From the NCBI GenBank assembly GCA_016235585.1, contig JACRJY010000037.1:1-64000 (forward strand): a stretch of DNA of 64,000 nt, read 5' to 3'. The stretch is from Verrucomicrobiota bacterium. GTDB lineage: Bacteria; Verrucomicrobiota; Verrucomicrobiia; Limisphaerales; JACRJY01. Under the pieces are notes generated by a model. The model had not been told where the DNA came from. It ran no database searches and was given only the letters and a program-made list of their open reading frames with translations. The position numbers and the translations under genes are program-made. Below are positions 8,482-48,852 of the stretch, one piece after another (the first letter of the stretch is position 1; each line of letters starts with the position of its first letter).

Positions 8482-9393
8482 TTAATCAAATTTTTCCAAC
8501 GCATGGGCCGCCGCGCCGAACGCGCCCGCCATTTCGCCGAGCTGCGCCGGGAGCAGTTGCACCTTCCGTCCGCCGGGCCGCCACTCCACTTCGTCCAAAA
8601 ATTCCCGCAGCGGCTCGAACAGCATCCGCCCGGCGCGGGCGATGCCGCCGCCGAGAATCACGGCCTCGGGGTCGAGGATGTTCACGAACGACGCCACGGC
8701 GCAGGCCAGCGCCCGCACGGACTTCAACCACATCGTCTCCGCTTCCTTGTCGCCACTCTCGACGGCGGCGACCAGCGCGTGCGTCGTGGCGAACCGCCCG
8801 CCGGTGCGCTCGTGAATGGTCTTGTTGCCGATGAACAGCTCCAGCGAGCCGGGCGCGTTGCACGTGTCGCGCGGGCCGAGCCAGTCCACAACCGTGTGGC
8901 CGAGATGCCCCGCGCGGCCCATCGCGCCGCGCAGCAAGTGCCCGTCCACCATCGCCGCGCCGCCCACGCCGGTGCCGAGCGTGAGCAGGCAGACGTTTTT
9001 CAACCCGCGCGCCGCGCCCAGCCAGACTTCACCGAGCAGCGCCGCGTACGCGTCGTTCAGCACGCGCACCGGCTGCGTCGCGCCGAGATAATCCGTCCAG
9101 TCCAAACCTTCGAGACCGAACAGCCGTCCCGGCATGAACGCGATGCCGCGCCCGTCCGCTGCCGCCAGTCCCGGCGCGGAAAGGCCGAGGCGTGAGGCGT
9201 CGCCACCGCAACTTGCTTGAAGTTGTTGAGCAACCGCGCGCGTCTTCACCGCCCACTCCATGTCCTGATCCACGAAGGAGACATTTTGCTGTGCGAGCAA
9301 TTCACCCGCCGGCGTCACCGCCACCGCCTTGATGCTCGTGCCGCCGAGATCAATGCCCAGCACGAAGTTCAATGTTCCGAGTTCGGAGTTCAT
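8482..9393 (-). CDS. ROK-family protein (glucokinase-like)
   Basis: LGIDLGGTSIKAVAV, TLGTGVGGAAMVDG, LGHTVVD and GGGIARAG motifs. Confidence 0.9.
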   Translation of the reverse strand: MNSELGTLNFVLGIDLGGTSIKAVAVTPAGELLAQQNVSFVDQDMEWAVKTRAVAQQLQASCGGDASRLGLSAPGLAAADGRGIAFMPGRLFGLEGLDWTDYLGATQPVRVLNDAYAALLGEVWLGAARGLKNVCLLTLGTGVGGAAMVDGHLLRGAMGRAGHLGHTVVDWLGPRDTCNAPGSLELFIGNKTIHERTGGRFATTHALVAAVESGDKEAETMWLKSVRALACAVASFVNILDPEAVILGGGIARAGRMLFEPLREFLDEVEWRPGGRKVQLLPAQLGEMAGAFGAAAHALEKFD

Positions 9394-9447
9394 GGTTCAA
9401 CGTCAGCCGCGCGAAACCCTGAACATCGAACTCTGAACCTTGAACCG
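9367..9447. repeat. Inverted heptad element at ROK 5' end
   Basis: Left arm 9367-9401: gttcaat gttccga gttcgga gttcatg gttcaac; right arm 9420-9447: tgaacat cgaactc tgaacct tgaaccg. Confidence 0.85.
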
Positions 9448-9454
9448 AGTTTCG

Positions 9455-10255
9455 CTAATCATGCTGCCCCTCGCTCACGCTCCAGCCGCCGTCCACCGCG
9501 AGCACCTGGCCGGTGACGAACCGCGCCGCGTCGCTCATGAAAAACACCGCCGCCGCGTCGCAATCCTCCGGCACGCCGATGCGCCCGCCGTCGAGCGGCT
9601 GCTTGGTTTTGATGAATTTCAAAATCGCGTCGTCATCCTGCGCCCGCGCGCTCATCGGCGTGGCGACCAGCGCGGGCGCAAGCACGTTGAAGCGGATGTC
9701 GTGCGGCGCGTAAAAGGCCGCCGCCGATTTGGTCAGCCCGATGATCGCCGCCTTGGCCGTCGCGTAGGCGTGCGTGCTGAAAAAAATCGGCGACGGCGAG
9801 AAACCGAGCACGCTGCCCATGTTCAGCACGCTGCCTCCCCTGCCCTGCTTGAGAAACTGCCGCGCCGCCGCGCGGTTCGAGTAGAACATCGCGGTGAGAT
9901 TTTCGTTCAGCGTGTAGCTCCACCCCTCGTCGGTCACTTCGTGCAACGGCCCGTCGCCATGCCGTCGTCCGCTGCCGCCGGCGATGTGATAAAGCCCGTG
10001 AAAGCCGCCAAACTTTTTGAACGCGGTGGCGATTGCCTTCTCCGCCGTCCGCGGTTTGCCGGCGTCACCCACGAGCGCGGCACACGCCTTGCCGAGTTCA
10101 CGCTGCGCTGCCGCTGTTTTCGTTCTGTCACGCCCGACGAGGACGACCCGCGCGCCTTCGGCGACGAACGCCCGCGCCGCCGACAGCCCCAGCCCGCCGG
10201 TGCCGCCGATGAGGACGAGGGTTTTGCCGTGCAGCTTTTTCATGCTCGCTCCCAA
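9455..10255 (-). CDS. SDR-family oxidoreductase
   Basis: TLVLIGGTGGLGLSAARAF, YATAKAAIIGLTKS, C-terminal VTGQVLAVDGGWSV. Confidence 0.9.
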   Translation of the reverse strand: MGASMKKLHGKTLVLIGGTGGLGLSAARAFVAEGARVVLVGRDRTKTAAAQRELGKACAALVGDAGKPRTAEKAIATAFKKFGGFHGLYHIAGGSGRRHGDGPLHEVTDEGWSYTLNENLTAMFYSNRAAARQFLKQGRGGSVLNMGSVLGFSPSPIFFSTHAYATAKAAIIGLTKSAAAFYAPHDIRFNVLAPALVATPMSARAQDDDAILKFIKTKQPLDGGRIGVPEDCDAAAVFFMSDAARFVTGQVLAVDGGWSVSEGQHD

Positions 10256-10915
10256 TCAAATCCCATGCCCGCGCACGGTGCATCCCGGCGGTTCGGCAAT
10301 GGTGCGGAGAAGATATTTCCCGCCGGCGGGACAGTGCGGCAGCGCGTTGCTGCGGAGGAGGACGACCAGTTCGGCGGGAACGATTTGGTTGGTGCCGACC
10401 TTTCTGGCCTCGAACGCCCAGCGTTGCGTGGCGGAATCGAGCACTTTCAGGCTGGCCACGCAGACGGCCTGGCCTTCGGGAATTTTTCCCGTGTCGAACT
10501 TGCTTTTGAGGCTGTTGCTGAATTCCTCCAGCCACGACCCGGCCTTGGCCGGTGAAGCCGAAGAATAGAGCGTCGCGTGGCCGTGCATGTCGCACGTCGT
10601 CGCCAGATCAAGCGAGCCGAGCGTGTAGCGCCCGCCCTGCGGGCAGTGCAGCATCCACGGCCAGCGCAGATACGCGCGGAGCGCCTGCTCGTCCGGCACG
10701 TCGAGGGAGCCGCGGTTGTGGTTGGTGCTCCACTGCGTGACGGCTTCGTCCACGAGCGCGAGCCGCCCCCGGCAGTCGTGCGGAAAGCGGCGGTCGGGGT
10801 CGGGGTCAATCGGTAGCAGCGCGAAGACCGCCAGTTGCGCCAGCGCCACCCCAATCCAAAGGTAGAAGCGCCCGCGTTTCGCCGCCGGGCGTTCGGGCTG
10901 GAGATTGGACTTCAT
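10256..10915 (-). CDS. Membrane-anchored hypothetical protein with two CPxGGxY...Cxx(H/R)GH motifs
   Basis: Start at MKSNLQ; one N-terminal TM helix; pseudopilin-like. Confidence 0.6.
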   Translation of the reverse strand: MKSNLQPERPAAKRGRFYLWIGVALAQLAVFALLPIDPDPDRRFPHDCRGRLALVDEAVTQWSTNHNRGSLDVPDEQALRAYLRWPWMLHCPQGGRYTLGSLDLATTCDMHGHATLYSSASPAKAGSWLEEFSNSLKSKFDTGKIPEGQAVCVASLKVLDSATQRWAFEARKVGTNQIVPAELVVLLRSNALPHCPAGGKYLLRTIAEPPGCTVRGHGI

Positions 10916-11029
10916 GCGCGCTCTGGATTGTGTCGCCGCAAAGCTGCCGGATTTCCCGGCGAAAGAGAACAGCAAATTAAAACCCCATGATCACGCCTGA
11001 TTCCCGGCCCGATTTTGATGAAGGAGGAT

Positions 11030-11139
11030 CTCTGCAAAGCACCACAAGAAATCTGTAGCGGCGGTCTGTGACCGACGAACCTTTCGGAAATTCGGACATT
11101 GACGGCAGTCACAGACCGCCGCTGCGGCGCTTTGCAGAG
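11030..11139. repeat. Intergenic inverted-repeat element
   Basis: agcggcggtctgtgac (11057-11072) / gtcacagaccgccgct (11108-11123) plus tctgcaaagc (11031-11040) / gctttgcaga (11129-11138). Confidence 0.85.
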
Positions 11140-11317
11140 GTTTCGAAAGGAGATTGATTTACGGGGGGCGGGGGAAACGTGCCACCATGCAGGGTTGGGT
11201 TCTTCCCGCGCTCTCCTGTTCAATCTGTTTTCAAAAACTTTCGCCTCCCAAGCCCGACAGGCTGCTAGCAGCAGATGGCCGTCAAGGCGGCGCCCGCCGT
11301 GGAGTTGAGGGCGAGTT

Positions 11318-11563
11318 ATGAATGCTGTTTCAACTGAACACGAAGCCCGCCCCATGTCGCCGCGCCTGCTCGACACCCGGCCCATCTTCGCCGCCGGACA
11401 GGCACCGTGCCAGGTGATTGACGACGCGGTGGCGGCATTGGCACCGGGGCAGCCCTTCGAGTCGATTCCGCTCTACGCCAAACTCGGCAGCCAGGGCTTC
11501 TCCCACCGCGCCGAGCAGTTGCCCGACGGCTCCTGGCGCGCGGAGTTCCGCAAATCCGGCTGA
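11318..11563 (+). CDS. DUF2249-like small protein
   Basis: LLDTRPIFAAGQAPCQVIDDAVAALAPGQPFE...KLGSQGFSHRAEQLPDGSW. Confidence 0.6.
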   Translation: MNAVSTEHEARPMSPRLLDTRPIFAAGQAPCQVIDDAVAALAPGQPFESIPLYAKLGSQGFSHRAEQLPDGSWRAEFRKSG

Positions 11564-11569
11564 ACGACA

Positions 11570-11670
11570 ATGCCAAAAGAAACCAGGCCGATCGTTTATG
11601 TCTGCTCTGGTTGCTCCGATGCGGGCGAACTGGCGGATCGCACTGCCCGGCGGCTCTCGCGGGACGGGGT
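11570..11670 (+). pseudogene. 5' remnant of a DGC-domain putative zinc-binding protein
   Basis: MPKETRPIVYVCSGCSDAGELADRTARRLSRDG matches the DGC family N-terminus from memory, then family resemblance stops. Confidence 0.6.
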
Positions 11671-11745
11671 GGGGAGCAGGCCGCGCACTCCGTCAATGTG
11701 CGGATTTCGAGCACAAAGCGCCGCGCTTCGCGCTCTCTCTGCGCC

Positions 11746-13794
11746 TCAGTCCAGCGCCGCGCGCATGGCGGCGAAAAGATTTTTTCCCGACTCGATCTTC
11801 ACCGGTTGCTTGGACTTCGCATCGCCGTCCTCCACCAGTTCTTCGGGCAGTTCCTTGAGGAAGGGCGACGGATGGCAGGGCATCACCTGCCCATATTTCT
11901 TCCGCCCGCCGCAGTGCGAAATCATCAGCTCCCGCTTCGCGCGCGTGATGGCCACGTAGAAGAGCCGCCGCTCCTCGTCCATCGTGCCCTCGACCTTCGA
12001 GCGCGAGTGCGGCAGCAGGCCGTCCTCCAAGCCCACGACATACACGTGCGGATACTCGAGGCCCTTGCACGAGTGCATCGTGATGAGCGTCACGGCGTCG
12101 CCGGCCTCCTTCTCCTCCTCGCGTTCGGAGTCGAGCGTGATGTTCTCCAGAAACCCGTCGAGCCGGTCGGACATCGGCTTGCCCACGCCGTCGCGGTCCA
12201 TCGTGGCAAGCAGGTCGCGCAGGCTGCGGATGCGGTTCTCGGCGTTCTCCTGGTTCTTCTCGCTGCGGCGGAGTTCGTTGTAGTAACCGGTCTCGTTGAG
12301 GAACTTCTCCGACCACTGCTGGAGCGCGTCGGGTTTCGAGGCGAGCGCTTCATCGGCGAGCTTCGCACGAGTCTCCTCCACGAAGCCGATGAACTCCTGA
12401 ATCGCCTCGCGGGCGCGGCCCTGAAAACTGTTCTGCACATCCGTGTGGCGCATCGCGGTGAAGACCGAGCAATGCCGCTCCTGGCTCGCGCCGAGCAACC
12501 GCTCCATCGTCACGTCGCTCAGGCCACGCGCCGGGACGTTCGCGATGCGCAGCAGGCTCACGTCGTCGTGCGGGTTCAGGAACGTCTTCACGTAGGCGAG
12601 GAAGTCGCGCACCTCGCGGCGGTCAAAGAAGCTCTGCCCGCCGATGAGGTGGTAGCGGATGCCGGCCTTCCGCAGCTCCATCTCGATGGGTCGCGACTGG
12701 AGGTTCGTGCGGAAGAGAATCGCCTGGTCGCCCCACGGCACGCGCTGCGTCATGCGCTTGAACTCGATGGTCTCGGCCACCGTGCGCGCCTCGGTGTCGT
12801 CGGTGTCGAAGGCGTGGAGCTGAATCTTCGTGCCTTGGCCGTTCTGCGACCAGAGGTTCTTCCCACGACGGCGGGCGTTGTTCTTGATGACCGCGTTGGC
12901 GGCCTGGAGAATGGTGTTCGTCGAGCGGTAGTTCTGCTCCAGCTTCACGACCTTCACCTCGGGGTAGTGCTTTTCGAGATCGAGCAAGTTGGCGACTTCC
13001 GCGCCGCGCCAGCCGTAGATGGACTGGTCGTCGTCGCCGACGACGCAGAGGTTGCGGTGCTTGAGCGTGAGCGCGTGGACGAGCTGGAACTGCGCGGCGT
13101 TGGTGTCCTGATACTCGTCCACCATCACGTAGCGGAAGCGCGCGCGGCAGGCGTCGAGCGCCTCGGGATGCTCGTTGAAGAGGCGCAGCGTGAGCAGGAT
13201 GAGGTCGTCGAAGTCCACCGCGTTGCAAGCCTTCAGCGCGGACTCGTATTTCTTGCGGACGTGCTCGGCGAGCGCGGAGACATTGGGGTCTTTGAACGCC
13301 GCCTCGGCCGCTGCGCCGCCGTTCTTGAACTTGCTCAACAGTGTGAGCACCGCGCGCGGATCGGTCTGTTCACCCTTCGCGGAGACGTTCGCGAGGATCT
13401 TCTTGATCGCGCCGAGCTGCTCGGACTCGTCGTAGATGACGAAGTTCTTCTTGTAGCCGAGCAGCTCGATGTGCTGCCGGAGTATGCGGACGCAGAGGGA
13501 GTGAAAGGTGGAGACGGTGGGGCGGGAGGGCTTCTTGTCGGGGTCTTGGGTCTGGCGTCTGGGGTCTCGGGGGAGCAGGGCGTTGACGCGTTCGAGCATC
13601 TCTCGCGCAGCCTTGTTGGTGAAGGTGACGGCGAGGATGTTTTCCGGCGCGATGCCGCGCTGCACCATGTGTGCGATGCGGAACGTGATGACGCGCGTCT
13701 TGCCCGTGCCCGCGCCCGCGAGGATGAGCACTGGCCCGTTGTGCGTCTCCACCGCGTGGCGTTGTTGAGGATTGAGCGAACCAAGATTCAGCAT
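11746..13794 (-). CDS. uvrD: UvrD/PcrA-family ATP-dependent DNA helicase
   Basis: LNPQQRHAVE, LAGAGTGKTRVITFRIA, FTNKAAREM, VDEYQDTN, VVGDDDQSIYGWRGA, MHSCKGLEYPHVYVVGLEDG; likely start MLNLGSLNPQQ. Confidence 0.95.
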   Translation of the reverse strand: MLNLGSLNPQQRHAVETHNGPVLILAGAGTGKTRVITFRIAHMVQRGIAPENILAVTFTNKAAREMLERVNALLPRDPRRQTQDPDKKPSRPTVSTFHSLCVRILRQHIELLGYKKNFVIYDESEQLGAIKKILANVSAKGEQTDPRAVLTLLSKFKNGGAAAEAAFKDPNVSALAEHVRKKYESALKACNAVDFDDLILLTLRLFNEHPEALDACRARFRYVMVDEYQDTNAAQFQLVHALTLKHRNLCVVGDDDQSIYGWRGAEVANLLDLEKHYPEVKVVKLEQNYRSTNTILQAANAVIKNNARRRGKNLWSQNGQGTKIQLHAFDTDDTEARTVAETIEFKRMTQRVPWGDQAILFRTNLQSRPIEMELRKAGIRYHLIGGQSFFDRREVRDFLAYVKTFLNPHDDVSLLRIANVPARGLSDVTMERLLGASQERHCSVFTAMRHTDVQNSFQGRAREAIQEFIGFVEETRAKLADEALASKPDALQQWSEKFLNETGYYNELRRSEKNQENAENRIRSLRDLLATMDRDGVGKPMSDRLDGFLENITLDSEREEEKEAGDAVTLITMHSCKGLEYPHVYVVGLEDGLLPHSRSKVEGTMDEERRLFYVAITRAKRELMISHCGGRKKYGQVMPCHPSPFLKELPEELVEDGDAKSKQPVKIESGKNLFAAMRAALD
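13541..13568. repeat. 4 x 7-bp tandem repeat inside uvrD
   Basis: gggtctt gggtctg gcgtctg gggtctc. Confidence 0.9.
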
Positions 13795-13846
13795 CGGCGC
13801 GCGGAGTGTAGTGGGCCGAGAATCACTGGCAAGGAGAAGCGGCATG

Positions 13847-13884
13847 AACCACGGAAAACACGGAGCACACGGAGAAACACCGAG
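13847..13884. repeat. AACCACGGAAAACACGGAGCACACGGAG-type repeat
   Basis: 26 of 27 bp identical to 25813-25839. Confidence 0.85.
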
Positions 13885-13890
13885 GCGGTT

Positions 13891-14424
13891 TCACTCGGAA
13901 TTCTTTTTCAAGTCTTCTTCCAGAAACTTGGTGACATCCTTGAAGCGGGCTTTGTTCTCGGCGCAGACCTCCATCAGGGCGCGGTGGGCTTCGAGGCAGT
14001 TGCGGGAGTTCTCTGCCTTGGAAACCTGGCCTTTGGTCAACGCCACTTCCTCAAGTTTCACTCCGGCATCCGGCGAACAACGCAAGACGCCGAACAGTGA
14101 AAGCACGCCGAGGTTGTCGAGCATGTCGGACACGCGCTCGCTGGGGTTAAGCAGCTCGATGGAGCGCGGCTCGCCGGGCTGCTCGGTCTCCGCCATGTCG
14201 AGGCTGATGCGCGCGAGGACGCCGAGGAACGTGCTGTCCATCAGCAGGCAGTCGGTGAGGTCGAGCACGAAGCGCCGGCGGCCCTGCGCACGGAGGCCGT
14301 TGATGAGCGCCTTGAAGTCCACGCTGACGGTGAAGTTCGCGCGCCCGGAAATCTTCACCCACACCGCGTCCTCCCGCACGCAGACTTGCAGGCGGGCGGC
14401 GGAATTGTTGGAAGTGCCGTTCAT
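13891..14424 (-). CDS. STAS-domain (anti-anti-sigma factor-like) protein
   Basis: RFVLDLTDCLLMDSTFLGVLARI in the conserved STAS position. Confidence 0.85.
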   Translation of the reverse strand: MNGTSNNSAARLQVCVREDAVWVKISGRANFTVSVDFKALINGLRAQGRRRFVLDLTDCLLMDSTFLGVLARISLDMAETEQPGEPRSIELLNPSERVSDMLDNLGVLSLFGVLRCSPDAGVKLEEVALTKGQVSKAENSRNCLEAHRALMEVCAENKARFKDVTKFLEEDLKKNSE

Positions 14425-14442
14425 GACTTCTCTCGGTGGTGG

Positions 14443-15624: not shown

Positions 15625-15630
15625 CGGATT

Positions 15631-16098: not shown

Positions 16099-16200
16099 GG
16101 GGCAAGCTTACGACTGGGACGGAAAAAGACAAGTGCGCTCTCGGAAAGTTCACCAGCTTGGGCGCATCTTGCGGCACGCCGTCAAATCCGATTTTTCCAG

Positions 16201-16797: not shown

Positions 16798-16804
16798 GGC
16801 GGAA

Positions 16805-21568: not shown

Positions 21569-24556
<2,988 letters not shown>

Positions 24557-24653
24557 AGAGCCGGGGATAGTGCGGAAAGTGGGGGCAGCGGGCAATCGCG
24601 ATTTCACGCGCCCTTCCTCTGCGGGCGCATCTGGGCTGCACACACACACACGT

Positions 24654-35206: not shown

Positions 35207-35437
35207 AATAGCTGCAACTATTTCCAAAATAGCTCATTGAATTCGTAAAATAGCTGCTTGAAAACGTAAAATAGCTCATTGAACTCACCGAATAGCTGCT
35301 TGAACTCACAAAATAGTTCATTGAACTCGCCGAATAGCTGGTTGAACTCACAAAATAGCGGCTTGAATTCGGCAAGTTCAACCTGCTCCACGGGAAATAG
35401 CGGCTTGAATTCGCCAAGTTCAACCCGCTCCCCGGGG
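35207..35437. repeat. 11 x 21-bp tandem array, no indels between units
   Basis: Units start at 35207, 228, 249, 270, 291, 312, 333, 354, 375, 396, 417; core aatagct(g/c)(c/a)ttgaa(c/t)tc. Confidence 0.95.
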
Positions 35438-35540
35438 ACTGCGGATGGAATTCGCCGCCCGCGAGAAATTTGCTTTCCAGTTCCACCCCGCCGTGCCAAA
35501 CATGGGCGGTGTTCGTCAGGGCAATTTTGAGTTTACCGAT

Positions 35541-36815: not shown

Positions 36816-38429
36816 ATGAACGACGAGACGCTGCCCAAGTCACCGCAAGATCAGGGGCTGTTCACGCCCACGGGCGGAGCGCGCCCCGGCCCTGCGCCGG
36901 GCCGCGACCAGTCCGGCGTCACGCTGGGCGGCTGCCGGCTCGTCCGCAAAATCGCCGAGGGCGGCATGGGCGAGATTTACGAGGCGGTGCAGACCGCGCT
37001 CGACCGCAAGGTGGCGGTGAAAATCGTCGCGCAGCAGCTCGCGGGGCGCGGGGAATTTCTCCAGCGCTTCGAGCGCGAGGCCAAGGCGGCGGCGGCGCTG
37101 AACCATCCCAACGTCGTGCATGTCCACGACTTCGGCCAGGCCGGCGGGCAGTTCTACCTGGTGATGGAATTCGTCGAGGGCGAGGATTTCTCCAGCCATG
37201 TCAGCCGGCACGGCAAGCTGGCGGTGGCGGACGCCTTGTCCGTCATCGAGCAGGCCGCGCGTGCGCTCAAGGCCGCGCTGGAAAAATCCATCATCCACCG
37301 CGACATCAAGCCGGCAAACCTGCTCCGCACGACCGACGGCCATGTGAAGGTTTCCGACCTCGGCCTCGCCAAGGTGCTGGATGACGACACCGAAGTGACG
37401 CAAACGGGCGAGGGTCTCGGCTCGCCGCACTATCTCGCGCCGGAGCAGGCGGACGACGCGCGCCACGCGGATCACCGCGCGGACATTTACTCGCTGGGCA
37501 TCACGCTGCTCTTTCTGCTCACGGGCAAAAGGCCGTTCGAGGGCGCGTCCTCCTACTCCATCGTGCTGGCCCACGCCGGCAAGGCGCTGCCGACCGGCGC
37601 GGAACTCGGCACGCCGCTGCCGGAGGCCGTCGAGGCGCTCATCCGCAAAATGGCCGCCAAGAAACCCGAGGAGCGCCACGCCGACTACGACGCGCTATTG
37701 GCGGACTTGGAGCGCGTGAAGGCCGGCTTCGCCCCCGTGCTGAAAAACTCGGCGAAGTCCAAAATATTCCGGCTCGCCGCCGCCGCCGCCCTGCTCGCCA
37801 TCGCCGCTCTGATTGCCGTGAATTATTTTAAGCACGACGAGCCACCGCCTCCCGTTGCGTCGCCAGCGCCGCCGCAGAAATCTTCTCCGACGGCGAAGAA
37901 GGATTTTGAGCGCGATGATTCCGGCTTCGCCCTCAACCGTCCGCCGCCGGGAAAAAAAAGGGGGGAGGGAGGACGCCGGGGGCCGCCCGCTTTGGAAACC
38001 CGGTATGGCACGCTGCGGTTTGCCCCACACCGATATCCGGTCGCCAACAGTCCGCTGCCCGACGCGCCACCCGCAACCATGCTGGCGCTGGCCGACGAAT
38101 ACGCGAAAACCAACGCCACCCAATACATCAACGTCATCCATGCCTACCGGCAGGTGATTGAAGCTGCCGCCGGCTCGCCGATCGAGGACAAGGCTCACGC
38201 GAAATCGGATGAAGCCATTGCCCGCCATCAACAGGCGACCTTCAAGGTGATTGCCGAATTTGAAGCCCGAATGCTGGTCAAGGTGAAGGCCGGCGACCTG
38301 CAGGGCGCCTACGATGTCTGGCGGGAATTTCCGGGAGACTTGTTTGTCCCCGAACCGGAAGTCAGCGATCCCATCAAGGCCGCCATCGAGCGGAACCTGC
38401 CGGCGGACTTTGTCCCGAAGGAGCGCTGA
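36816..38429 (+). CDS. Serine/threonine protein kinase with C-terminal TM and extracytoplasmic region
   Basis: IAEGGMGEIYEAVQ, VAVKIV, IIHRDIKPANLL, VSDLGLAK, YLAPEQ, DIYSLGITLLFLLTGKRPFEG. Confidence 0.95.
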   Translation: MNDETLPKSPQDQGLFTPTGGARPGPAPGRDQSGVTLGGCRLVRKIAEGGMGEIYEAVQTALDRKVAVKIVAQQLAGRGEFLQRFEREAKAAAALNHPNVVHVHDFGQAGGQFYLVMEFVEGEDFSSHVSRHGKLAVADALSVIEQAARALKAALEKSIIHRDIKPANLLRTTDGHVKVSDLGLAKVLDDDTEVTQTGEGLGSPHYLAPEQADDARHADHRADIYSLGITLLFLLTGKRPFEGASSYSIVLAHAGKALPTGAELGTPLPEAVEALIRKMAAKKPEERHADYDALLADLERVKAGFAPVLKNSAKSKIFRLAAAAALLAIAALIAVNYFKHDEPPPPVASPAPPQKSSPTAKKDFERDDSGFALNRPPPGKKRGEGGRRGPPALETRYGTLRFAPHRYPVANSPLPDAPPATMLALADEYAKTNATQYINVIHAYRQVIEAAAGSPIEDKAHAKSDEAIARHQQATFKVIAEFEARMLVKVKAGDLQGAYDVWREFPGDLFVPEPEVSDPIKAAIERNLPADFVPKER

Positions 38430-38471
38430 TTCGGGACATTCCCCGGCGCAAGCTTCCGCCCTTCATGTTCA

Positions 38472-38500
38472 CTTAAGGTTGGCGGACGCAGACTGGCGGC
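38472..38500 (+). promoter_or_regulatory. TTAAGGTTG motif, copy 3
   Basis: cttaaggttggcggacgcagactggcggc upstream of the MbnP-CCP fusion. Confidence 0.4.
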
Positions 38501-38517
38501 GAATCAATTGGCGCGCA

Positions 38518-40440
38518 TTGAAGAATTCTTTTCATCCAGGTCCCGGTGCCCGGCGGGCCTGCTGCCTGTGGCTCCTCGCCCTCGGCGGCGCGCTGGCGGG
38601 CGCGGCGGAGTTGCGCGTGGAGATTTCCCCCGCCTTCGAGTCCGTCCCGCTGCAGCTTGATTCCGCCCGCCACCCGCTGCCCGGCGGCGAGACTATTGCC
38701 ATCACGCGCTTGAGCTATCTGCTCGGCGGCTTCGCGCTGGAGAAAACCGGCGGCGGCTGGGCGGAACTGCCCGGCCAGTTCGCGTGGCTCGACGCCGCGC
38801 GGAGTCGCAATCAATTCACTCTGGAGAACATTCCCGCTGGCGAATATCGCGCGTTCCGCTTCACCGTCGGACTCGATTCAGAAACGAACAAGGGCGACCC
38901 CGCGCGGCACCCCGCCGGCCATCCGCTCAATCCCAACCTCAACGGCCTGCACTGGACATGGCAGAGCGGCTACATCTTCCTCGCGCTGGAGGGGATGTTC
39001 ACGGAGCGCCGGCCTCCGGCCCGGCCCGATGGAAAACCGCCTGCTCCCAACGCCGTTTCGGAGAACGGCGCTCCGCGCGGCTTCTCCTACCACTTCGCCC
39101 GCGACCCGAACCGCACCGTCATCACGCTGCCCGTCCAGTTGAACCTGTCCGCCGCCAGCGCGCCGGGTGTGAAGCTCGCCTTCGATGTCGCCGCGCTGCT
39201 CAACGCCCCGCGCCGCCTCTCGCCCGCCCGCGACGGCGAGTCCACGCACTCGCGCGCGGATGATCCCATCGCAGCGGCGCTGAAGGCCAACCTGCCCGGC
39301 GCGTTTCAAGTCCGACAGATCGTCGCAGACACCCGCGCCGCCGCCGCGCCGGTGGTGAAGCCGCTTTACCTCCCGGCGAAATTCACGCCCTATCGCTTCA
39401 CCATGAGCGGCGTTTTTCCCGTGCCGGACTTGCCGAAAGACAACCCGCTCCTCGAAGAGCGCGTCGCGCTGGGCCGCGCGCTCTTCCACGAGAAACAATT
39501 ATCCCGCGACAACTCGCTCGCCTGCGCCTCATGCCACGTCGAGGCCGCCGCGTTCACCGACCCGCGCCGCTACAGCCTCGGCGTCGAGGCCCGCACCGGC
39601 ACGCGCAACGCGATGCCGCTGTTCAACCTCGCGTGGAAAAACAGCTTCTTCTGGGATGGCCGCGCGCCCTCGCTGCGCGCGCAGGCGCTGCTGCCCATTC
39701 AGGATCACACCGAGATGGATGAGAAGCTGGAGCGCGTAGTGGAAAAGCTCCAATCCTCCAAGCCGGAATATTTTCAAACCACTCCATCTCAAAATTCAAA
39801 ATTCAAAATTCAAAACTTGGATTACCCCGCCCTCTTCGCCGCCGCCTTCGACTCGCCGGAAATCACGCCGGAAAAAATCGGCCTCGCGCTGGAAAACTTT
39901 CTCCTCACCCTCACGAGCTTTGACTCCAAGTTCGACCGCGCCATGCGCGGCGCGGCGGAACTCACGGAACTGGAGAAGCGCGGCTTCGAGCTGTTCTTCA
40001 CCGAGTCCGACCCGCGCCGCGAGCAGTTCGGCGCGGACTGCTTCCACTGCCATGGCGGCGCGCTGTTCACCGACAACCAGTTTCACAACAACGGCCTCAT
40101 GGCGTTTTCGGACGAGGACACGGGCCGTTTCAAAGTCACGGGCAACGAATCAGACCGGGGGAAATTTTCCACGCCCAGCCTCCGCAACGTCGCCCTCACC
40201 GCGCCCTACATGCACGACGGGCGTTTCGCCACGCTGGAGGAGGTCACCCAGCACTATCATCGCGGCGTGCAACGCAGCCCGACGCTCGACCCGAACCTCG
40301 CCAAGCACCCGCGCGCCGGCCTGCCCATCGGCCCGGAAGACCAGCGCGCGCTCGTGGCGTTTATGAAAACGCTCACGGACGAAAAGTATCTTCCACCGCC
40401 GGCCGGTGAAAAAACTCAACGCTCATCATCAACTCCATGA
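38518..40440 (+). CDS. MbnP-like domain fused to di-haem cytochrome c peroxidase/MauG(MbnH)-like domain
   Basis: WTWQSGYIFLALEG (MbnP-like) then CASCH and CFHCH haem motifs; plausible TTG start at 38518 with signal peptide. Confidence 0.8.
   Translation: MKNSFHPGPGARRACCLWLLALGGALAGAAELRVEISPAFESVPLQLDSARHPLPGGETIAITRLSYLLGGFALEKTGGGWAELPGQFAWLDAARSRNQFTLENIPAGEYRAFRFTVGLDSETNKGDPARHPAGHPLNPNLNGLHWTWQSGYIFLALEGMFTERRPPARPDGKPPAPNAVSENGAPRGFSYHFARDPNRTVITLPVQLNLSAASAPGVKLAFDVAALLNAPRRLSPARDGESTHSRADDPIAAALKANLPGAFQVRQIVADTRAAAAPVVKPLYLPAKFTPYRFTMSGVFPVPDLPKDNPLLEERVALGRALFHEKQLSRDNSLACASCHVEAAAFTDPRRYSLGVEARTGTRNAMPLFNLAWKNSFFWDGRAPSLRAQALLPIQDHTEMDEKLERVVEKLQSSKPEYFQTTPSQNSKFKIQNLDYPALFAAAFDSPEITPEKIGLALENFLLTLTSFDSKFDRAMRGAAELTELEKRGFELFFTESDPRREQFGADCFHCHGGALFTDNQFHNNGLMAFSDEDTGRFKVTGNESDRGKFSTPSLRNVALTAPYMHDGRFATLEEVTQHYHRGVQRSPTLDPNLAKHPRAGLPIGPEDQRALVAFMKTLTDEKYLPPPAGEKTQRSSSTP
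39003..39074. repeat. GGAGCGCCG...CGGCGCTCC inverted repeat inside the MbnP-like domain
   Basis: Arms 39003-39011 / 39066-39074; related to 8368-8431. Confidence 0.75.
39791..39818. repeat. 4 x 7-bp tandem repeat inside the CCP domain
   Basis: aaaattc aaaattc aaaattc aaaactt. Confidence 0.93.
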
Positions 40441-41510: not shown

Positions 41511-43430
41511 ATGCGTGCGCTTCGATTCATTGCGACCGCCGGGTTGGCGCTGGGATTAGCTGGCCGGGTCGGCGCGCAATCCCCGGAGTTGAGCCTGAAC
41601 CGGCAGGCGGGGCCGCTGCGCGTCGGCATCACAGGTGAAATCGGCCGCACCTACAGTTTGGAGGCCGCCCCGGCGCTCAACGGCACCAACGTCTGGACCT
41701 CGCTGCTGACCCTGACCCTCACGAACGGCCAGCAACATTGGTTTGATGCCGCAGCGGCCGGCTCTTCTCAACGGTTTTATCGCGTCGCCAAATTGAGCGG
41801 CCCCGCGCCCATGGAAGAGGCGCTGAATTTCCGGCTGATCGATCACACTGGCCGGTCGCACGAACTGGCCTATCACACGGAGGCGCGGGCGGTCGTGCTT
41901 GTTTTCACCGGCAACGGCTGCGCGAAAATGCCGCCGATGCTCGCCACGATCAAATCGCTGCGCGACCAGTTTGCCGGCCAGCAGGTGATCTTCTGGCTGG
42001 TGGATGCCAACGCGCCCGACACCCGCGACCGCATCGCCGCCGAAGCCGCGAACCTCGGCATTGATCTGCCGATCCTCCACGATGACGCCCAACTGGTCGC
42101 CCGCGCCTACCACGCCGGCACGACCACCGAGGCCATCGCCATCCGCACGACGGACTGGCGCATTTTTTATCGCGGTGCCATTGATGACCGTGTGGGCACC
42201 AATACTGTGGGCACCACCCAAGCGTATCTCGCCGACGTGCTGACCCAGTTTTTAGGAAACCAGTTCATTTCTCTCCAGCGCACGGTGGCGGAGGGAACCC
42301 CCATCGTTTTCAACCCACGACCCGAAGTTTCCTACGCCGCTGACATCGCGCCGCTGCTGATCGATCGCTGCGTGCGCTGCCACAGCCCTGGCAACATCGC
42401 GCCGTTTGCCCTGGCCAACTACAGCGTGGTCACCAACCGGGGACTCGCCATCAAGCGCCAGGTTCTCGCCGGGGAGATGCCGCCGTGGCACGCGGATCCG
42501 CGCTACGGCGTCTTCACCAACGACGCCGGGTTGACGCCAGCGCAAAAAGCCCTGCTAGTGCAATGGATTGATGACGGTATGCCGCGCGGACTGGGCGTGG
42601 ACGTGCTGGCTACGAATCTGACCACCACAAATTATCCCAATGCCTGGCCGGGCGAGTTGGGCCAGCCGGATTACATCGTCACCATCCCCCTGCAAAACAT
42701 TCCGGCCACCGGCGAATTGCCCTACCAATATCCGACCATCGTGATGACGAACACGTCCGCTTTATGGCTGCGTGCGGCGATCATACGCCCTGGCAACCCC
42801 CGTGTGGTGCATCATTGCCATGCGTTGACGGGCGTCGATTCAGGATCCATCGCCAGTTACAATCCCGGCACCAGGCCTGTGGCTTATCCCTCGGGCACTG
42901 GCAGGCAATTGGCCGCCTTCTCCTCGGTAAGATTTGAGATTCACTACACCCCGACGGGCGAGCTGGAAACCGATCAGACCCAACTGGGCCTTTATTTCGC
43001 GCCCGCTCCGCCCGCGATGGAGTTGGTGGCCGATAGGTTCAGCACCCATGACATTACCATTCTCCCTGGCGTGCGGGAATATGAACGGGAGGTGCAAGGC
43101 ACTCCGTCCACGACGAAAGATGTCTGGCTCTACGGAATGAGACCGCATATGCACTACCGCGGTGCCCGCTTTCAATACGAGGCGCTGTATCCGGACAGCA
43201 CCACGGAAGTTCTGCTTTCGGTTCCGAAATACGACTTTCACTGGCAGGCGACCTATCACTTGGCGCAACCGAAGCGGCTGCCGGCTGGCACTGTTCTTCG
43301 CGTCCGCGGGGCCTTTGATAACTCACCGCAAAACCCGCATAATCCCGACCCCAATGCAACGGTCTATCGCGGTTTGGGATCGGAAGACGAAATGTTCAGC
43401 GGGCATTTCTATTACGCCGTGATTCCGTAG
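41511..43430 (+). CDS. Secreted redoxin - cytochrome c - copper type II ascorbate-dependent monooxygenase-like fusion
   Basis: NFRLIDHTGRSHELAYH...VLVFTGNGCAKMP; CVRCH; GMRPHMHYRGARFQYEALYPDSTTEVLLSVPKYDFHWQATYHL. Confidence 0.8.
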   Translation: MRALRFIATAGLALGLAGRVGAQSPELSLNRQAGPLRVGITGEIGRTYSLEAAPALNGTNVWTSLLTLTLTNGQQHWFDAAAAGSSQRFYRVAKLSGPAPMEEALNFRLIDHTGRSHELAYHTEARAVVLVFTGNGCAKMPPMLATIKSLRDQFAGQQVIFWLVDANAPDTRDRIAAEAANLGIDLPILHDDAQLVARAYHAGTTTEAIAIRTTDWRIFYRGAIDDRVGTNTVGTTQAYLADVLTQFLGNQFISLQRTVAEGTPIVFNPRPEVSYAADIAPLLIDRCVRCHSPGNIAPFALANYSVVTNRGLAIKRQVLAGEMPPWHADPRYGVFTNDAGLTPAQKALLVQWIDDGMPRGLGVDVLATNLTTTNYPNAWPGELGQPDYIVTIPLQNIPATGELPYQYPTIVMTNTSALWLRAAIIRPGNPRVVHHCHALTGVDSGSIASYNPGTRPVAYPSGTGRQLAAFSSVRFEIHYTPTGELETDQTQLGLYFAPAPPAMELVADRFSTHDITILPGVREYEREVQGTPSTTKDVWLYGMRPHMHYRGARFQYEALYPDSTTEVLLSVPKYDFHWQATYHLAQPKRLPAGTVLRVRGAFDNSPQNPHNPDPNATVYRGLGSEDEMFSGHFYYAVIP

Positions 43431-43492
43431 GATCGATCATCCTTTGCCAGGTCACGCCTGTGCTTGAACCATCTATCAACCGGTTGGCCGTT

Positions 43493-46243
43493 ATGTTGTC
43501 AAACGCGTTCAGCCGCGCTCGTTGCCGGCTGATGATTTCTTCGGCCTGCGTGTTCGTGGTCGTTGCGCTCATGGCCCCCGCGCCTTGCGCCAGCGCCGCG
43601 CCCGCCGACCCGAACGCCACGCCGCAGGCCGACGCCCTGTGGAGCCGCCTGGAATACTTTCGCAGCCGCGACCTGTTCCTCTTCGGCCAGCATCACGCGA
43701 ACCTTTACGGCATCAACACCAACAACGCCCGCTGGCTCACCGACAACAACTCGAACACCAACCGCTCGGACGTGAAGTCCGTCACCGGCTCGCACCCCGC
43801 GCTGTTCGGCTTCAGCCCGACGGTGGTCGTCGGCATGGCCCCGAACCCGGAATCGTGGTTGAGCGTGGCCGAGTGGCAGAACCGCATCAAGGACGCGCAC
43901 CGCTGGGGCGGCGTCATCCAGATTTATTATCCGCCGGAAAAAGTCTTCTACACCAACGGCTGGGTCGAGCCGACGCTGGATTCCGTGCAGACCAACGGCC
44001 TCCACTACGCCGCGCTCACGAACCACATCCACGCCTTCGCCGATATGCTCGACGGCCTGCTCGACGACAGCGGCGATCCGATCCCCATCGTGCTGCGCCC
44101 GTGGCACGAGCACACGGGCGGGTGGTTCTGGTGGTCGCCCGGCAACAACGCGACCGACAAGCAGCAATACATCAACCTCTTCCGCTCCACCGTGGACATC
44201 CTGCGCGCGCGCGGCCACAACAGCAGCCTCACCGCACTCTCGCCGTCCGGCCACCGGCTCGGCGTGGACCGCGAATATCTCTTCGCCTACCCCGGCGACG
44301 GCTACGTGGACATCTTCGGCTTCGACATGTATTTCCTGGCCCCGCGCGATTACGTGGATCAGGGCGGCGGCTATCCGACGAACTCCAAGAGCTTCACACT
44401 CGACACGCAGTTCTGGGAGGCCATCAACGTCACCGCCGACGCCGTGCTCGACAAGGAAACCAACGGCATCACCAAGCTCATGGCCATCGCCGAGTTCGGC
44501 CCGCCCGACGGCATCTGGGGGAACACGAACCTTACCGCGCAGACCGCGACAAATTTTTACGACGGCCTGTTCCTGCCCGGCCTCACGGCGAACGTCACCC
44601 TCGCCCGCCGCCAGCTCATCAGCTACGCGATGGTCTGGCGCAACGCCAGCGTCAGCCACGGCTGGATGCCCAACACCACGCACGGCGGCGTGCAGGACAC
44701 GGTGGATTTTTACAACGCCATCCGCGTGTCGTTCCTCAATGAACAAGGCGCGCACTGGCGGCTGGAAAATAATTTCAGCGACGCGCAGGCCGCGCTGCCG
44801 TTGTCGGTTCCAACCGGAGCGACCGCGCCGACCTTCGGCACCAACGTCCCGAACCTTCCGCTTCCGGGAATCGCCACGAACTCCCGTTCGGCGAACTTCA
44901 ACCCCGCCGCCACCAACGTCCTCGAAACCACCGCCGGCGAAGCGCTCGCCTTTGACGGCGATTTGCGGAGCTACACGATGGAGGCCTGGCTCAAGCTCGA
45001 CACGCTCCCGCCCAACGGCGGCCGCAGCGTCATCATCAGCGCGAAGCCCGCCGGCACAAACGACGCGCACGCGAACTACGTCTTCCACGTCACCGACACC
45101 GGGCGGCTCGCGGTGACGTTTGGCGACGGCGCGACGAACTCCGCCACGCTCCTCGCGCCCGCCGTGCTCACCGTCACGACCGGCGCGTGGGCGCACGCGA
45201 GCCTGGCCTTCGACCAGCCGAACAACCGCTTCCGTTTCACGCTGAACGGCAACCGCCAGTTCACCGCGAACTCCGCCGCCTTCCGCCCGACGCCCGTTCA
45301 AGCCAGCCGCGTCACCCTCGGCGGCTGGCGCGCGCCGGCGGGTGGCTTCACAAATTTGTTCGACGGGCGGCTCGATGAAATCCGCTTCACCGCGTCGCTG
45401 CTCGCGACCAACCTGCTCCTCTACTCGAACACCGCGCCGGTGGTTTCCGCGCTCGCCGACCTGACCATCGCCGAGGACACCGCCACACCCGCGCTCGCGT
45501 TCACCATCAGCGACGCGGAAACTGCGGCGAGCCAGCTCACGCTGTCGGGCGTGTCGTCGAACACCAACCTCGTCGCGGCCAATGGAATTGCCCTCGGCGG
45601 CAGCGGCTCCAACCGCACCGTGACCGTCACGCCGCTGACGAACCAGTTCGGCACCGCGACCATCACCGTCACCGTGAGCGACGGCTTTGCCAGCACAAAT
45701 GAAACCTTCCTCCTCACCGTCACCAGCGTGAACGACGTGCCGGTGCTCGCGCCTGTCGCCAACCGCACCGTCAACGCGGGCGACACGTTGACCGTCACCA
45801 ACTCGGTGACGGACGTTGACCTGCCGCCGCAACTGCTGATCTTCAGCCTGCTCACCGCGCCATCCAACGCCTCGCTCAACGCGACAAGCGGAGTCTTTGC
45901 GTGGCGGCCCGGACTCGCACTGGCCGGCACGACCAACTCCGTCACAATTTCCGTCGCTGACAGCGGCGCGCCCACCTTGAGCGCCACGCAAAATTTTTCC
46001 GTGGTGATCGGCCTGCCCACGGCCCCCGGCATCAGCACGCCCATTCTCACCAACGGGCGCTTCCGCCTGCTCATCACCGGCGCGACCGGGGCGGACTTCA
46101 ATTACACGGTGGAAACCTCCGCCGACCTCGTGACGTGGCAGGCGCTCTCGTCCACCAACCCGCCCGCCGCGCCATTCTTCTGGCTGGACACGCGGGCCAG
46201 CAACTTCTCCACGCTCTTTTACCGCGTGCTGCTCGGGCCGTGA
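43493..46243 (+). CDS. GH26-like glycoside hydrolase with LamG and Ig/cadherin-like modules
   Basis: LFLFGQHHANLYGIN...IPIVLRPWHEHTGGWFWWSPGN...LMAIAEFGPPDGIWG. Confidence 0.87.
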   Translation: MLSNAFSRARCRLMISSACVFVVVALMAPAPCASAAPADPNATPQADALWSRLEYFRSRDLFLFGQHHANLYGINTNNARWLTDNNSNTNRSDVKSVTGSHPALFGFSPTVVVGMAPNPESWLSVAEWQNRIKDAHRWGGVIQIYYPPEKVFYTNGWVEPTLDSVQTNGLHYAALTNHIHAFADMLDGLLDDSGDPIPIVLRPWHEHTGGWFWWSPGNNATDKQQYINLFRSTVDILRARGHNSSLTALSPSGHRLGVDREYLFAYPGDGYVDIFGFDMYFLAPRDYVDQGGGYPTNSKSFTLDTQFWEAINVTADAVLDKETNGITKLMAIAEFGPPDGIWGNTNLTAQTATNFYDGLFLPGLTANVTLARRQLISYAMVWRNASVSHGWMPNTTHGGVQDTVDFYNAIRVSFLNEQGAHWRLENNFSDAQAALPLSVPTGATAPTFGTNVPNLPLPGIATNSRSANFNPAATNVLETTAGEALAFDGDLRSYTMEAWLKLDTLPPNGGRSVIISAKPAGTNDAHANYVFHVTDTGRLAVTFGDGATNSATLLAPAVLTVTTGAWAHASLAFDQPNNRFRFTLNGNRQFTANSAAFRPTPVQASRVTLGGWRAPAGGFTNLFDGRLDEIRFTASLLATNLLLYSNTAPVVSALADLTIAEDTATPALAFTISDAETAASQLTLSGVSSNTNLVAANGIALGGSGSNRTVTVTPLTNQFGTATITVTVSDGFASTNETFLLTVTSVNDVPVLAPVANRTVNAGDTLTVTNSVTDVDLPPQLLIFSLLTAPSNASLNATSGVFAWRPGLALAGTTNSVTISVADSGAPTLSATQNFSVVIGLPTAPGISTPILTNGRFRLLITGATGADFNYTVETSADLVTWQALSSTNPPAAPFFWLDTRASNFSTLFYRVLLGP

Positions 46244-46273
46244 GGGAATACGCTGCGCCCGAAGCATCCGTGC

Positions 46274-47377
46274 ATGAACACAAAATTGATCTCGCTCTTG
46301 ACTGCGGCGGCCAGCGCCAGCACACAACTTCTCCACGCCCACCTCATCGGTAACGGGCCGCATGACCACGGCGCGATGAAATACGATTTCAGCGTGCGAC
46401 CACCGGCTGGCGTTCTGCTCGCGCAGGCCGCCCGCCCGGCTTCGCCCGCGTCGCCCGCGCCTGTCGCCGCAAATAATTCCAGCAACTCGGCGAAGGCCGC
46501 GCCCTTTCAGGCCTTTGCGCCCAAGGTGAGGACGCGCGCGGATGCAAACTTCCTCTACGTCGAGTCCGACGGGATGCCCGCGCACAACATGATGGTGGGC
46601 ATCACCGCGTGGCAGCAGCAGGTGCCGTTGCCGCAGCCCTACACCGGCAACAACGCGTGGCGCATCCCGCTCAACCCGATGCCGTCGAAAAATCCCGTGT
46701 CCATCAAGGGCCGCTTCCTGCGCGGGGCCATCGCGCTCGCGGCGAACGGCATTCCCATTTTCAACCCACAGAACAATCGCGGCGAAGTCGCGCAGGAGAT
46801 CGGCGAACTCGATCAATGGGGCGGCCACTGCGGGCGCGCGGATGATTATCATTACCACGCCACGCCGTTTCATTTGCAGAGCGTGGTGGGGAAGGGACTG
46901 CCCGTCGCCTACGCGCTCGATGGTTATCCAATTTACGGCCTCACCGAGCCGGACGGTTCCTCGCCGACGAAACTCGACGTGTTCAACGGCCACGAACTTC
47001 CCGGCCTCGGCTACCACTACCACGGCTCGACGAAGTATCCCTACGTCAACGGCGGCTTCCACGGCGAGGTCGTCGAGCGCGACGGGCAGGTGGATCCGCA
47101 GCCGCGCGCACAGCCGATGCGCGAGGCGGGCGCGCCGTTGCGCGGTGCGCGCATCACCGGCTTCACGTCGAAGGAGAGCAAGAGCTACAGCCTCAAATAC
47201 GAAGTCAGCGGCGAGACGCGCCACGCGAACTACACGCTCAACGATGACAAGTCGGTGAAGTTCGATTTCGTGGACGGGCGCGGCCAGGTGAAATCGGAAA
47301 CTTTCACGCCGCGCCCGCGCGGCCCCGGCGGCGGGCAGAAGGGAAAAGGCGGGCAGAAGAAGGGAGAACGGAAATGA
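46274..47377 (+). CDS. YHYH-domain protein
   Basis: ADDYHYHATPFHLQSVVGKGLPVAYALDGYPIYGL. Confidence 0.88.
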   Translation: MNTKLISLLTAAASASTQLLHAHLIGNGPHDHGAMKYDFSVRPPAGVLLAQAARPASPASPAPVAANNSSNSAKAAPFQAFAPKVRTRADANFLYVESDGMPAHNMMVGITAWQQQVPLPQPYTGNNAWRIPLNPMPSKNPVSIKGRFLRGAIALAANGIPIFNPQNNRGEVAQEIGELDQWGGHCGRADDYHYHATPFHLQSVVGKGLPVAYALDGYPIYGLTEPDGSSPTKLDVFNGHELPGLGYHYHGSTKYPYVNGGFHGEVVERDGQVDPQPRAQPMREAGAPLRGARITGFTSKESKSYSLKYEVSGETRHANYTLNDDKSVKFDFVDGRGQVKSETFTPRPRGPGGGQKGKGGQKKGERK

Positions 47378-48852
47378 AGTTCAAAGCTCAATGCTCAAAG
47401 CTCAAGGTAAATTCCAAACGCCAAGGTTCAAGCTCCAACCTGCCGGCGGCACGTCGTCTTGGTGCTTTGGCCCTGGTTCTTCCCTTGGCCTTTGGCCTTT
47501 GTTCTTTAGCCTTCGCCGCGAACGCGGCGCCCGCGCCCAACTTCCTTTTCATCTTCGTGGATGACCAGGGCTGGAGCGGCACGTCGGTGGCGATGATGCC
47601 GGGGAAGGATTTCAGCCGCACGGCCGGTTTCCGGATGCCAAATCTTGACCGGCTCGCGGCGCAGGGGATGGTTTTCTCGCAAGCCTACGCGGGCCACCCG
47701 AAATGCGAATGCTCGCGCGCGTCGCTCCAGATGGGCCGCACCACGACGAGCCTCAATGCGATCAGCCGGTGGTCGCGCAACTGGAGCGCGCCCGCCAGCG
47801 ACTCGCTCGCGAACACGCTCAAACGCGCGAACCCGAACTACCGCGCCGCGCATTTCGGCAAGTGGCAGTGGCTGCGGACGCCCGAAGTGTTCGGCTACGA
47901 CGCGGGCGACGGCGTCACGCAAAACGAGGATGGCGACTCGCGCGACCCGAACGACCCGAAGCAATCCTTCGGCATCACGCGCCGCGCGCAGGCGTTCATG
48001 GAGAAGCAGGTGAAGGAGGGGCACCCGTTTTATCTCCAGCTTTCCTACTACGCCGTGCATCAAACTCCCCAGGCGCTCGCGGCGACGCTCAAGAAATACG
48101 AGGGCGCGGGCGGCGGCCCCGGCGGCGGCGCCAAGGGTGACAAGGGCAAGGGCGGTGGGCGCGGCGGTGGCCCGGTGATGGCGGCGATGACCGAAGACCT
48201 CGACACCTGCATCGGCGTGCTGCTCAAGAAGCTCGATGAACTCGGCATCGCGAAGAACACCTACATCATCTACACGTCCGACAACGGCGGGCGCACCGAG
48301 GTGCTCAAGGGCGGCAAGACGCTCTGCGACGAAGGCGGCATTCGCGTGCCGCTCATCGTCACCGGCCCCGGCATTCGCAGTGGCGTTTATTGCAACGAAC
48401 CCGCCGTGGGCTACGACATTTTCCCGACGGTGCTGGATTTCGTCGCGCCCGGTTTCGCGTTGCCCAAGGGCGTCGAGGGCGGGAGTTGGAAGCCAGTTCT
48501 GCTCAATGCCGGCACGGGCAAGGTCGCGCGCCCGATTGACCGCATTGTCTGGCATCACGACGTGGAGATCGAGCATCCGCAGACGGCGATGCGCAAAGGC
48601 AACCTCAAGCTGCTGCACTATTGGGACACGAAAGAGAGCTTCCTCTACGACCTCGTCACCGACTTGAGCGAGCGCAACAATCTTGCGAAGCAGCAACCCG
48701 CCGTCGCCGCGCAGATGCTCGCCGAACTCAAGGCCCACGTCCGCGCCGGCCTCGGCGAGCAGAAGTTTGCCGCACTCGAGACTGGGAAAGTTGAGCAAGG
48801 CGGTCGCCCCGGCGATGGCAAAGGAAAGGGCGGCAAGAAGAAGCAGCAGTGA
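47374..48852 (+). CDS. Sulfatase-family protein
   Basis: NFLFIFVDDQGWSGT; FGKWQWLRTPEVFGYDAG; YIIYTSDNGGRTEVLKGGK; FGly-site region HPKCECSRASLQMGR; 4-nt overlap with upstream YHYH gene. Confidence 0.9.
   Translation: MKFKAQCSKLKVNSKRQGSSSNLPAARRLGALALVLPLAFGLCSLAFAANAAPAPNFLFIFVDDQGWSGTSVAMMPGKDFSRTAGFRMPNLDRLAAQGMVFSQAYAGHPKCECSRASLQMGRTTTSLNAISRWSRNWSAPASDSLANTLKRANPNYRAAHFGKWQWLRTPEVFGYDAGDGVTQNEDGDSRDPNDPKQSFGITRRAQAFMEKQVKEGHPFYLQLSYYAVHQTPQALAATLKKYEGAGGGPGGGAKGDKGKGGGRGGGPVMAAMTEDLDTCIGVLLKKLDELGIAKNTYIIYTSDNGGRTEVLKGGKTLCDEGGIRVPLIVTGPGIRSGVYCNEPAVGYDIFPTVLDFVAPGFALPKGVEGGSWKPVLLNAGTGKVARPIDRIVWHHDVEIEHPQTAMRKGNLKLLHYWDTKESFLYDLVTDLSERNNLAKQQPAVAAQMLAELKAHVRAGLGEQKFAALETGKVEQGGRPGDGKGKGGKKKQQ
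47377..47511. repeat. Inverted-type heptad element forming the sulfatase N-terminus
   Basis: Left 47377-47404: aagttca aagctca atgctca aagctca; right 47484-47511: cttggcc tttggcc tttgttc tttagcc. Confidence 0.8.

Follow-up and report, generated by a model that had tools for sequence, protein, structure and literature searches.

Site-specific heptanucleotide arrays of about four units recur in genes of Limisphaerales-type Verrucomicrobiota and suggest local copying in seven-base steps

We analyzed a 64,000-bp stretch of DNA (contig JACRJY010000037.1 of assembly GCA_016235585.1, hereafter the window) from a Limisphaerales-type bacterium of the Verrucomicrobiota, whose order comprises soil and water bacteria. 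Here, as in the rest of this genome and in its relatives, short runs of adjacent 7-bp units, or heptad arrays, are in large excess, keep a tight span and differ in unit from site to site. Members of the order carry hundreds of them, and they appear, change as a block and disappear in tolerant loops of proteins, essential ones included. They recur at orthologous protein loops; between congeners we observed an array-wide change of unit and a 21-nt difference in length, and decayed copies are present as well. They do not derive from a single mobile sequence by copying, and a function common to them all is improbable. It seems likely that they arise by local copying in 7-nt steps, which repeatedly makes and homogenizes them, and that they are retained where they are tolerated.

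Arrays were called in the window where at least 16 of 21 positions were identical at lag 7, with dinucleotide shuffles as a control. This revealed seven islands (13539, 22500, 22551, 23963, 39783, 47375 and 47480) as against 0.2 in the shuffles, while lags of 4, 5, 8, 10, 11 and 13 yielded zero or one island each. The three islands at lag 14 are a harmonic of 7, and lags divisible by three were raised, as expected in genes. A weaker site at 9363-9403 passes at 15/21 but not at 16/21. The same period prevails in the rest of the genome, a 4.6-Mb metagenome-assembled genome (MAG) of which 0.99 Mb was sampled (L117-L176): 41 strict period-7 arrays were found and none in a third-order Markov control, with zero or one array at periods 4, 5, 10 and 13, five at period 8, and 19 and 16 at lags 14 and 21, in part harmonics of 7. 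Taken together, the shuffles and the Markov control exclude chance as the origin of these arrays. A first-pass annotation of the window had named the runs and called for a comparison with shuffled sequence; every run is in the sequence where it was placed, and the genome count bears out the excess. Among relatives, whose material consists nearly entirely of species-level MAGs, the density is 15-110 arrays per Mb in related genomes, and in other loci of Verrucomicrobiota, Lentisphaerota and Kiritimatiellota about 18 per Mb; none was found in 0.30 Mb of Bacilli loci. A BLAST comparison of a heptad array with plasmid and Escherichia coli collections gave no match, which is uninformative because low-complexity filtering was on.

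The majority of arrays are 25-32 bp long; the distribution peaks at 30-32 bp (31 bp, or about 4.4 units), drops sharply above 32 bp and has few members beyond 35 bp, in agreement with the copy number near four read at first from the window alone; our detection threshold disfavors three-unit arrays. Lag-7 identity within arrays averages 93%. The unit length of seven, which is not divisible by three, is found in coding and non-coding arrays alike, and the peak of the span is equal in both, with only 14 arrays clearly non-coding. Given the similar span of these 14 arrays, selection on the reading frame was rejected as the source of the four units. An inverted copy lies within 120 bp of 15.6% of arrays compared to 1.3% at random places, a pairing that had also been anticipated, and unpaired single arrays are the majority. 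The units themselves are diverse: some 35 types occur among 54 arrays of the own-genome sample, and many different units among 207 distinct arrays collected across the order. The early impression of a shared architecture without shared sequence therefore extends to the genome and to the order, where period and span are constant and units are specific to their sites.

The gene leuS, coding for leucyl-tRNA synthetase (LeuRS), offers a comparative case. The window LeuRS is closest to that of Verrucomicrobiota of subdivision 3, of the Limisphaerales-Pedosphaerales kind, and in the LeuRS of different families arrays recur at the same few loops, each with a unit of its own. Site S1 lies between YWM and DLYVGG, where the ancestral loop is almost absent, as in Thermus thermophilus LeuRS; inserts of about 16-21 aa carry one array at this site and those of 30-40 aa mostly two inverted arms, and residues 691-711 of the window LeuRS are predicted to form a disordered loop there (pLDDT <50). 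For many genes with arrays at the S2 or S3 loop, loop length is exactly one that is common among relatives without arrays (19 aa and 11 aa, respectively); others are longer. On a LeuRS tree built without the array segments, array presence changes at least 19 times at S3, 18 times at S1 and 8 times at S2, counts that tree error or recombination can inflate. Depending on the family, a single slot carries four to five copies that are all AATTCCA, all AATTCCG, all AATTTCA or all AATTCAG, and most arrays at the same slot keep four units. After an S1 array, the conserved downstream codons often reappear inverted (AAATCCAC...GTGGATTT), and where the downstream codon differs, the inverted copy differs accordingly (AAATCAAC...GTTGATTT). 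The S3 array continues into conserved E-F codons (GAATTC), and both observations hint at local templates. Palindromes resembling the GTAG/CGTC repetitive extragenic palindromic (REP) sequences sit in frame at S1/S3 in L017, L039, L045, L268, L289 and L303, in slots that hold heptads in other genomes.

Close relatives reveal how these arrays change. Within genus g26, leuS DNA is about 83-95% identical, and S1 holds CTCAACG four times in L309 versus CTCAACT four times in L310-L313, with flanks and length unchanged. At S3, L311 has four GATTGCN units (16 aa) and L312 only one (9 aa), a 21-nt difference at 93% identity and the only clear whole-unit change in copy number between relatives. Because identity stays at about 90% up to the slot edges, the g26 changes are local events. 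In the sister pair G024 and G058, which are about 81% identical, a 96-bp array-bearing intergenic stretch is missing from one sister and others have diverged; no target-site duplication was evident at this single empty-site pair. Differences within arrays are spread nearly evenly over the unit, with a heterogeneity of 0.08-0.12 at each of the seven positions. This even spread looks like decay, and no position-specific constraint was found within units.

The copying would be an error of DNA synthesis upon its template, made in place and advancing seven bases per step (polymerase stutter or slippage), with fold-back copying in some cases giving the inverted second arm. A typical burst might consist of about three rounds of re-copying, leaving about four units and 30 bp. 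Only net multiples of three would survive in genes, which would allow passage from one unit to four (+21 nt) and the reverse, provided that all three frames crossed by the 7-mer stay free of stops and that the loop is tolerant. Cycles of contraction and re-expansion could then swap the whole unit sequence while array length is kept. Arrays would persist in tolerant places such as surface loops, N-termini and intergenic gaps, and decay there by substitution. Several observations weigh against this account. Plain slippage leaves unexplained the exact conservation of length at non-repetitive ancestral loops (11 aa at S3, 19 aa at S2), and alone it is insufficient for the narrow size near four units. 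Among the strain pairs compared, of which the closest are about 5% diverged, no array was seen to arise. The contrast between families in which all copies of a unit differ is partly forced by the choice of homogeneous arrays, and some of what families share may be due to homologous recombination of leuS.

The arrays could also be small mobile palindromic elements, similar to REP sequences or miniature inverted-repeat transposable elements (MITE), that insert in frame into genes and have the heptads as their arms. This interpretation, which appears unlikely to us, would fit the palindromes at S1 and S3 of leuS and the 96-bp stretch of the sister species, as well as three G024 copies of a 48-70-bp hairpin, GTGAGGAGGC...GCCTCCT(T/C)AC, which bear heptads in the loop. 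On the contrary, flanks are unrepeated in 29 of the 54 own-genome arrays (any repeat being found in 25) and in 16 of the 41 arrays of G024 and G058, unit sequence varies from copy to copy, most arrays are single and unpaired, and length is unchanged at several leuS loops. The lack of a repeated flank at many arrays makes a mobile element less likely, as does the occurrence of the hairpin examined both with and without heptads; a common element was found around a minority of arrays only. These observations favor a generating process over a copied element, as the first-pass annotation had it. Its comparison with Rickettsia palindromic elements (RPE) holds for the place of insertion, since GTAG/CGTC-like palindromes share slots with heptads and since arrays reside in frame within protein genes (leuS S1 inserts of 16-40 aa, inserts in UvrD and in the di-haem protein). 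It does not extend to a conserved dispersed sequence with palindromic ends, the mark of RPE, REP and MITE, which is not a property of heptad arrays. The dispersed hairpin was seen on contig 22 of G024 (L177 18634, L186 8106, L188 11142 and L190 6473) and in L242, L247 and L256.

We consider it quite improbable that the arrays are under selection as binding sites of a protein that recognizes DNA or RNA in 7-nt steps, whether IHF/HU-like, as proposed in Geobacter, or of the kinds known from omega/RHH heptads and Csp. Some features are those expected of binding sites. The 207 arrays share a weak, degenerate consensus, RRMNYYC, carrying about 1.1-1.35 bits per unit above controls, and 59% of units consist of one purine run and one pyrimidine run (two R/Y transitions) as against 32% of shuffled units. 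Copy number is nearly constant, some arms are paired on opposite strands as in G. metallireducens, and proteins that bind tandem heptads are known (PMC4498918; Csp discussed in PMC4679880). Such a role is difficult to reconcile with the many different units within one genome, with arrays that come and go at orthologous sites between congeners, with their location on either strand in the protein loops of unrelated genes, and with unit positions that decay about equally.

Recombination of leuS clearly seems to occur. In L325 and L268, two members of one genus, leuS is 95-100% identical upstream of S3, 40-80% identical from S3 to S1, and then recovers, a pattern that in sequence resembles a recombination mosaic. 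Also, in the 16-aa class of S3, three families (L262, L263 and L316) have one array in common down to its internal variant, and near-identical two-arm inserts are found in G000 (f1) and g26. These examples would fit a small number of true origins, followed by the sharing of leuS array classes between lineages mainly through homologous recombination of leuS segments. We give little credence to this as the main explanation. It leaves unexplained that arrays whose units are specific to their sites are spread over the whole genome, and it is at odds with the array-wide change of unit in one slot among congeners, across which flank identity is even.

Equally doubtful is a dedicated enzymatic process of Limisphaerales-type bacteria that would overwrite about 30 nt with adjacent 7-mer copies, leave length unchanged and diversify tolerant protein loops. 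If true, such diversification would be templated, local and neutral to sequence, and would resemble neither slippage nor transposition nor diversity-generating retroelements. Purely in-place overwriting as a general rule is weakened by the fact that S1 arrays are true insertions and that some same-length cases may be imports by recombination. Finally, the idea that the segments are ancestral protein sequence with an incidental heptad look is already largely refuted and scarcely credible. In the DNA, period 7 greatly exceeds its level in shuffles; T. thermophilus LeuRS, PcrA and the solved di-haem enzymes lack the inserts that hold most window arrays; and relatives differ in unit at one site. 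The counter-test by shared residues, set out beforehand, applies to a single site, 23967 of leuS, and only in part. There, the L038 peptide has equal length and mostly the same residues without gaps (a similar peptide is found in L037), the segment is predicted to be ordered and mostly helical, and the heptad of L038 is weak, with 14/24 lag-7 identities versus 21/24 in the window. An ungapped peptide with a weaker heptad indicates that array and non-array states are linked by substitutions alone, in one direction or the other.

Other bacteria are already known to carry short 7-base repeats. Reports of a heptanucleotide excess in bacteria go back to 2007 or earlier and offer no mechanism; the usual conjecture is the footprint of a DNA polymerase (quoted in PMC4692102 and PMC4679880), one idea being that contact length of the polymerase favors 7-nt slippage (quoted in PMC4692102). 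The closest precedent is Geobacter metallireducens, whose hepta- and octanucleotide sites (Gmet_H4 and Gmet_I classes) have four or five units of 7-8 nt, form opposite-strand pairs at variable distance and are both genic and intergenic; IHF/HU-type regulators were suggested by the authors (PMC2700814). Each of those classes has one consensus (GGACCGG, MTYCTGA, GTTGCTYN) in 16-49 copies (PMC2700814), whereas the unit of the arrays described here is site-specific, turns over at orthologous loops and shares only a weak degenerate form. The number of units agrees, and an inverted partner within 120 bp accompanies only 15.6% of our arrays. The GGGAATC/GGGGAYT heptamers of Xanthomonas and Nostoc likewise have four units most often, now and then form inverted pairs, and change fast in length and sequence between relatives; however, they consist of one G-rich unit per genome, are mostly intergenic (7-11% in genes) and have a tail to 26 units (PMC4692102), while the arrays described here have many units, are often in genes and rarely exceed five units. 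The first-pass suggestion of a distinct class is consequently not wholly sustained, given these precedents (PMC2700814, PMC4692102).

Other comparisons are more distant. TAACTGA repeats of Beggiatoaceae, Cyanobacteria and Bacteroidetes are also heptanucleotide direct repeats, in two to six copies and often by start codons, but their unit is fixed and they lie mainly upstream of start codons with few in coding sequence (PMC4679880). In the P6b stem of the Nostoc tRNA-Leu(UAA) intron, degenerate heptads form two complementary hairpin arms of variable copy number (PMC3488679, citing Costa et al. 2002); that case is a single locus of intron RNA, in contrast to arrays that are genome-wide, mostly unpaired and often protein-coding. 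Borg elements share fast-evolving repeats in open reading frames (ORF), often encoding disordered segments, with units divisible by three (PMC9879509) rather than of seven. Bacterial heptanucleotide simple sequence repeats (SSR; the long SSR of the Mrazek type and the cyanobacterial short tandemly repeated repetitive sequences, STRR) resemble our arrays in head-to-tail 7-nt units above chance, and differ from them in having one or few units per genome. As far as we have read, in none of the systems compared do many units per genome turn over inside essential genes. The diversity of units, their presence in essential genes and their concerted turnover appear to be new. No earlier description in Verrucomicrobiota was found in the literature searched, mostly outside subscription journals.

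This order combines a very active process, many sequences and access to essential genes with changes traceable at orthologous slots among congeners. Such activity and traceability make step size, contraction and re-expansion, in-place rewriting and the responsible polymerase amenable to testing. There is also a warning for annotation, as peptides such as LSTLNSQLST, SAECGVRSAE, NSEFRIPNSEF and ADCRLPIADS are readings of DNA heptads in these genomes and not conserved protein motifs.

In the window itself (Table 1), genes were assigned by Pfam and coding status by open frames and homology. As first reported, the arrays lie in or at the edge of genes, namely at the start of a ROK-family gene and, in frame, three times in leuS and also in genes for a helicase of the UvrD/PcrA type, a MbnP/MauG-type di-haem protein and a sulfatase. 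Because most of such a genome is coding, their presence inside genes does not amount to enrichment in genes. Alignment with PcrA places the helicase array in an 11-residue insertion immediately ahead of the STFHS motif, and the di-haem array encodes residues extra to solved relatives (tpsqnskfkiqn). Of the three sites said to have a second arm of opposite orientation, those at 9367/9420 and 22509/22555 have complementary arms forming hairpins that no shuffle folds equally well; the 47377/47484 pair folds only modestly (z -3.0), and there is no complementarity between its two units. The second arm at 9420 lies just upstream of the ROK-family ORF.

Table 1. Heptad arrays and partner arms in the window
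Coordinates	Strand	Feature	Context
9367..9402	-	Array, unit GTTCNNN (plus strand)	First codons of ROK-family ORF 8482-9393(-), peptide MNSELGTLNF
9415..9446	+	Inverted second arm, NNNGAAC units, partner of the 9367 array	Hairpin fold z -4.5
13540..13571	-	Array GGGTCTN	In frame, UvrD/PcrA-type helicase gene 11746-13845, aa 91-103
22507..22536	-	Array GTCGAGR	leuS (21569-24649) site S1, 3' arm in leuS sense
22553..22581	-	Inverted partner arm CTCGACY	leuS site S1, 5' arm in leuS sense; pair fold z -5.8
23966..23995	-	Array ATTTGCG	leuS aa 217-230; lineage-specific insert, not in T. thermophilus LeuRS
39789..39815	+	Perfect array TCAAAAT x3.9	In frame, MbnP/MauG-type di-haem protein gene 38314-40440
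47377..47405	+	Array AAGCTCA	First codons of sulfatase gene 47374-48852
47485..47513	+	Array TTGGCCT	Encodes VLPLAFGLCSLAFA in sulfatase gene 47374-48852

By eye, VLPLAFGLCSLAFA reads like the hydrophobic core of a sulfatase signal peptide. Signal-peptide-like cores of secreted proteins, sulfatases included, are encoded by heptads at 47374-47520 of the window, in L136 (17172), in L192 (16851) and twice in L193 (4578 and 6647). A search for known RNA families in the window found none. A repeat element beside 9367 was considered and rejected, since the whole-genome matches at 9476-9587 fall in a short-chain dehydrogenase gene and represent paralogues. At 35225-35456, a tract between the large YHYH/sulfatase gene and the genes that follow it comprises some eight degenerate 21-nt units (AAATAGCTSMTTGAAYTCGCM) and then two 42-nt units; this array is single-copy, with no second copy in the sampled sequence. 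Other periods were detected as well, with a smaller excess at period 11 in the 0.99-Mb sample (9 arrays) and with period 8 as the second commonest in some relatives. Octanucleotide arrays with opposite-strand partners, at L117 9208-9298, L020 2045-2531 and L030 3449-4183, resemble the TCTCCGTS and GTTGCTYN classes of G. metallireducens.

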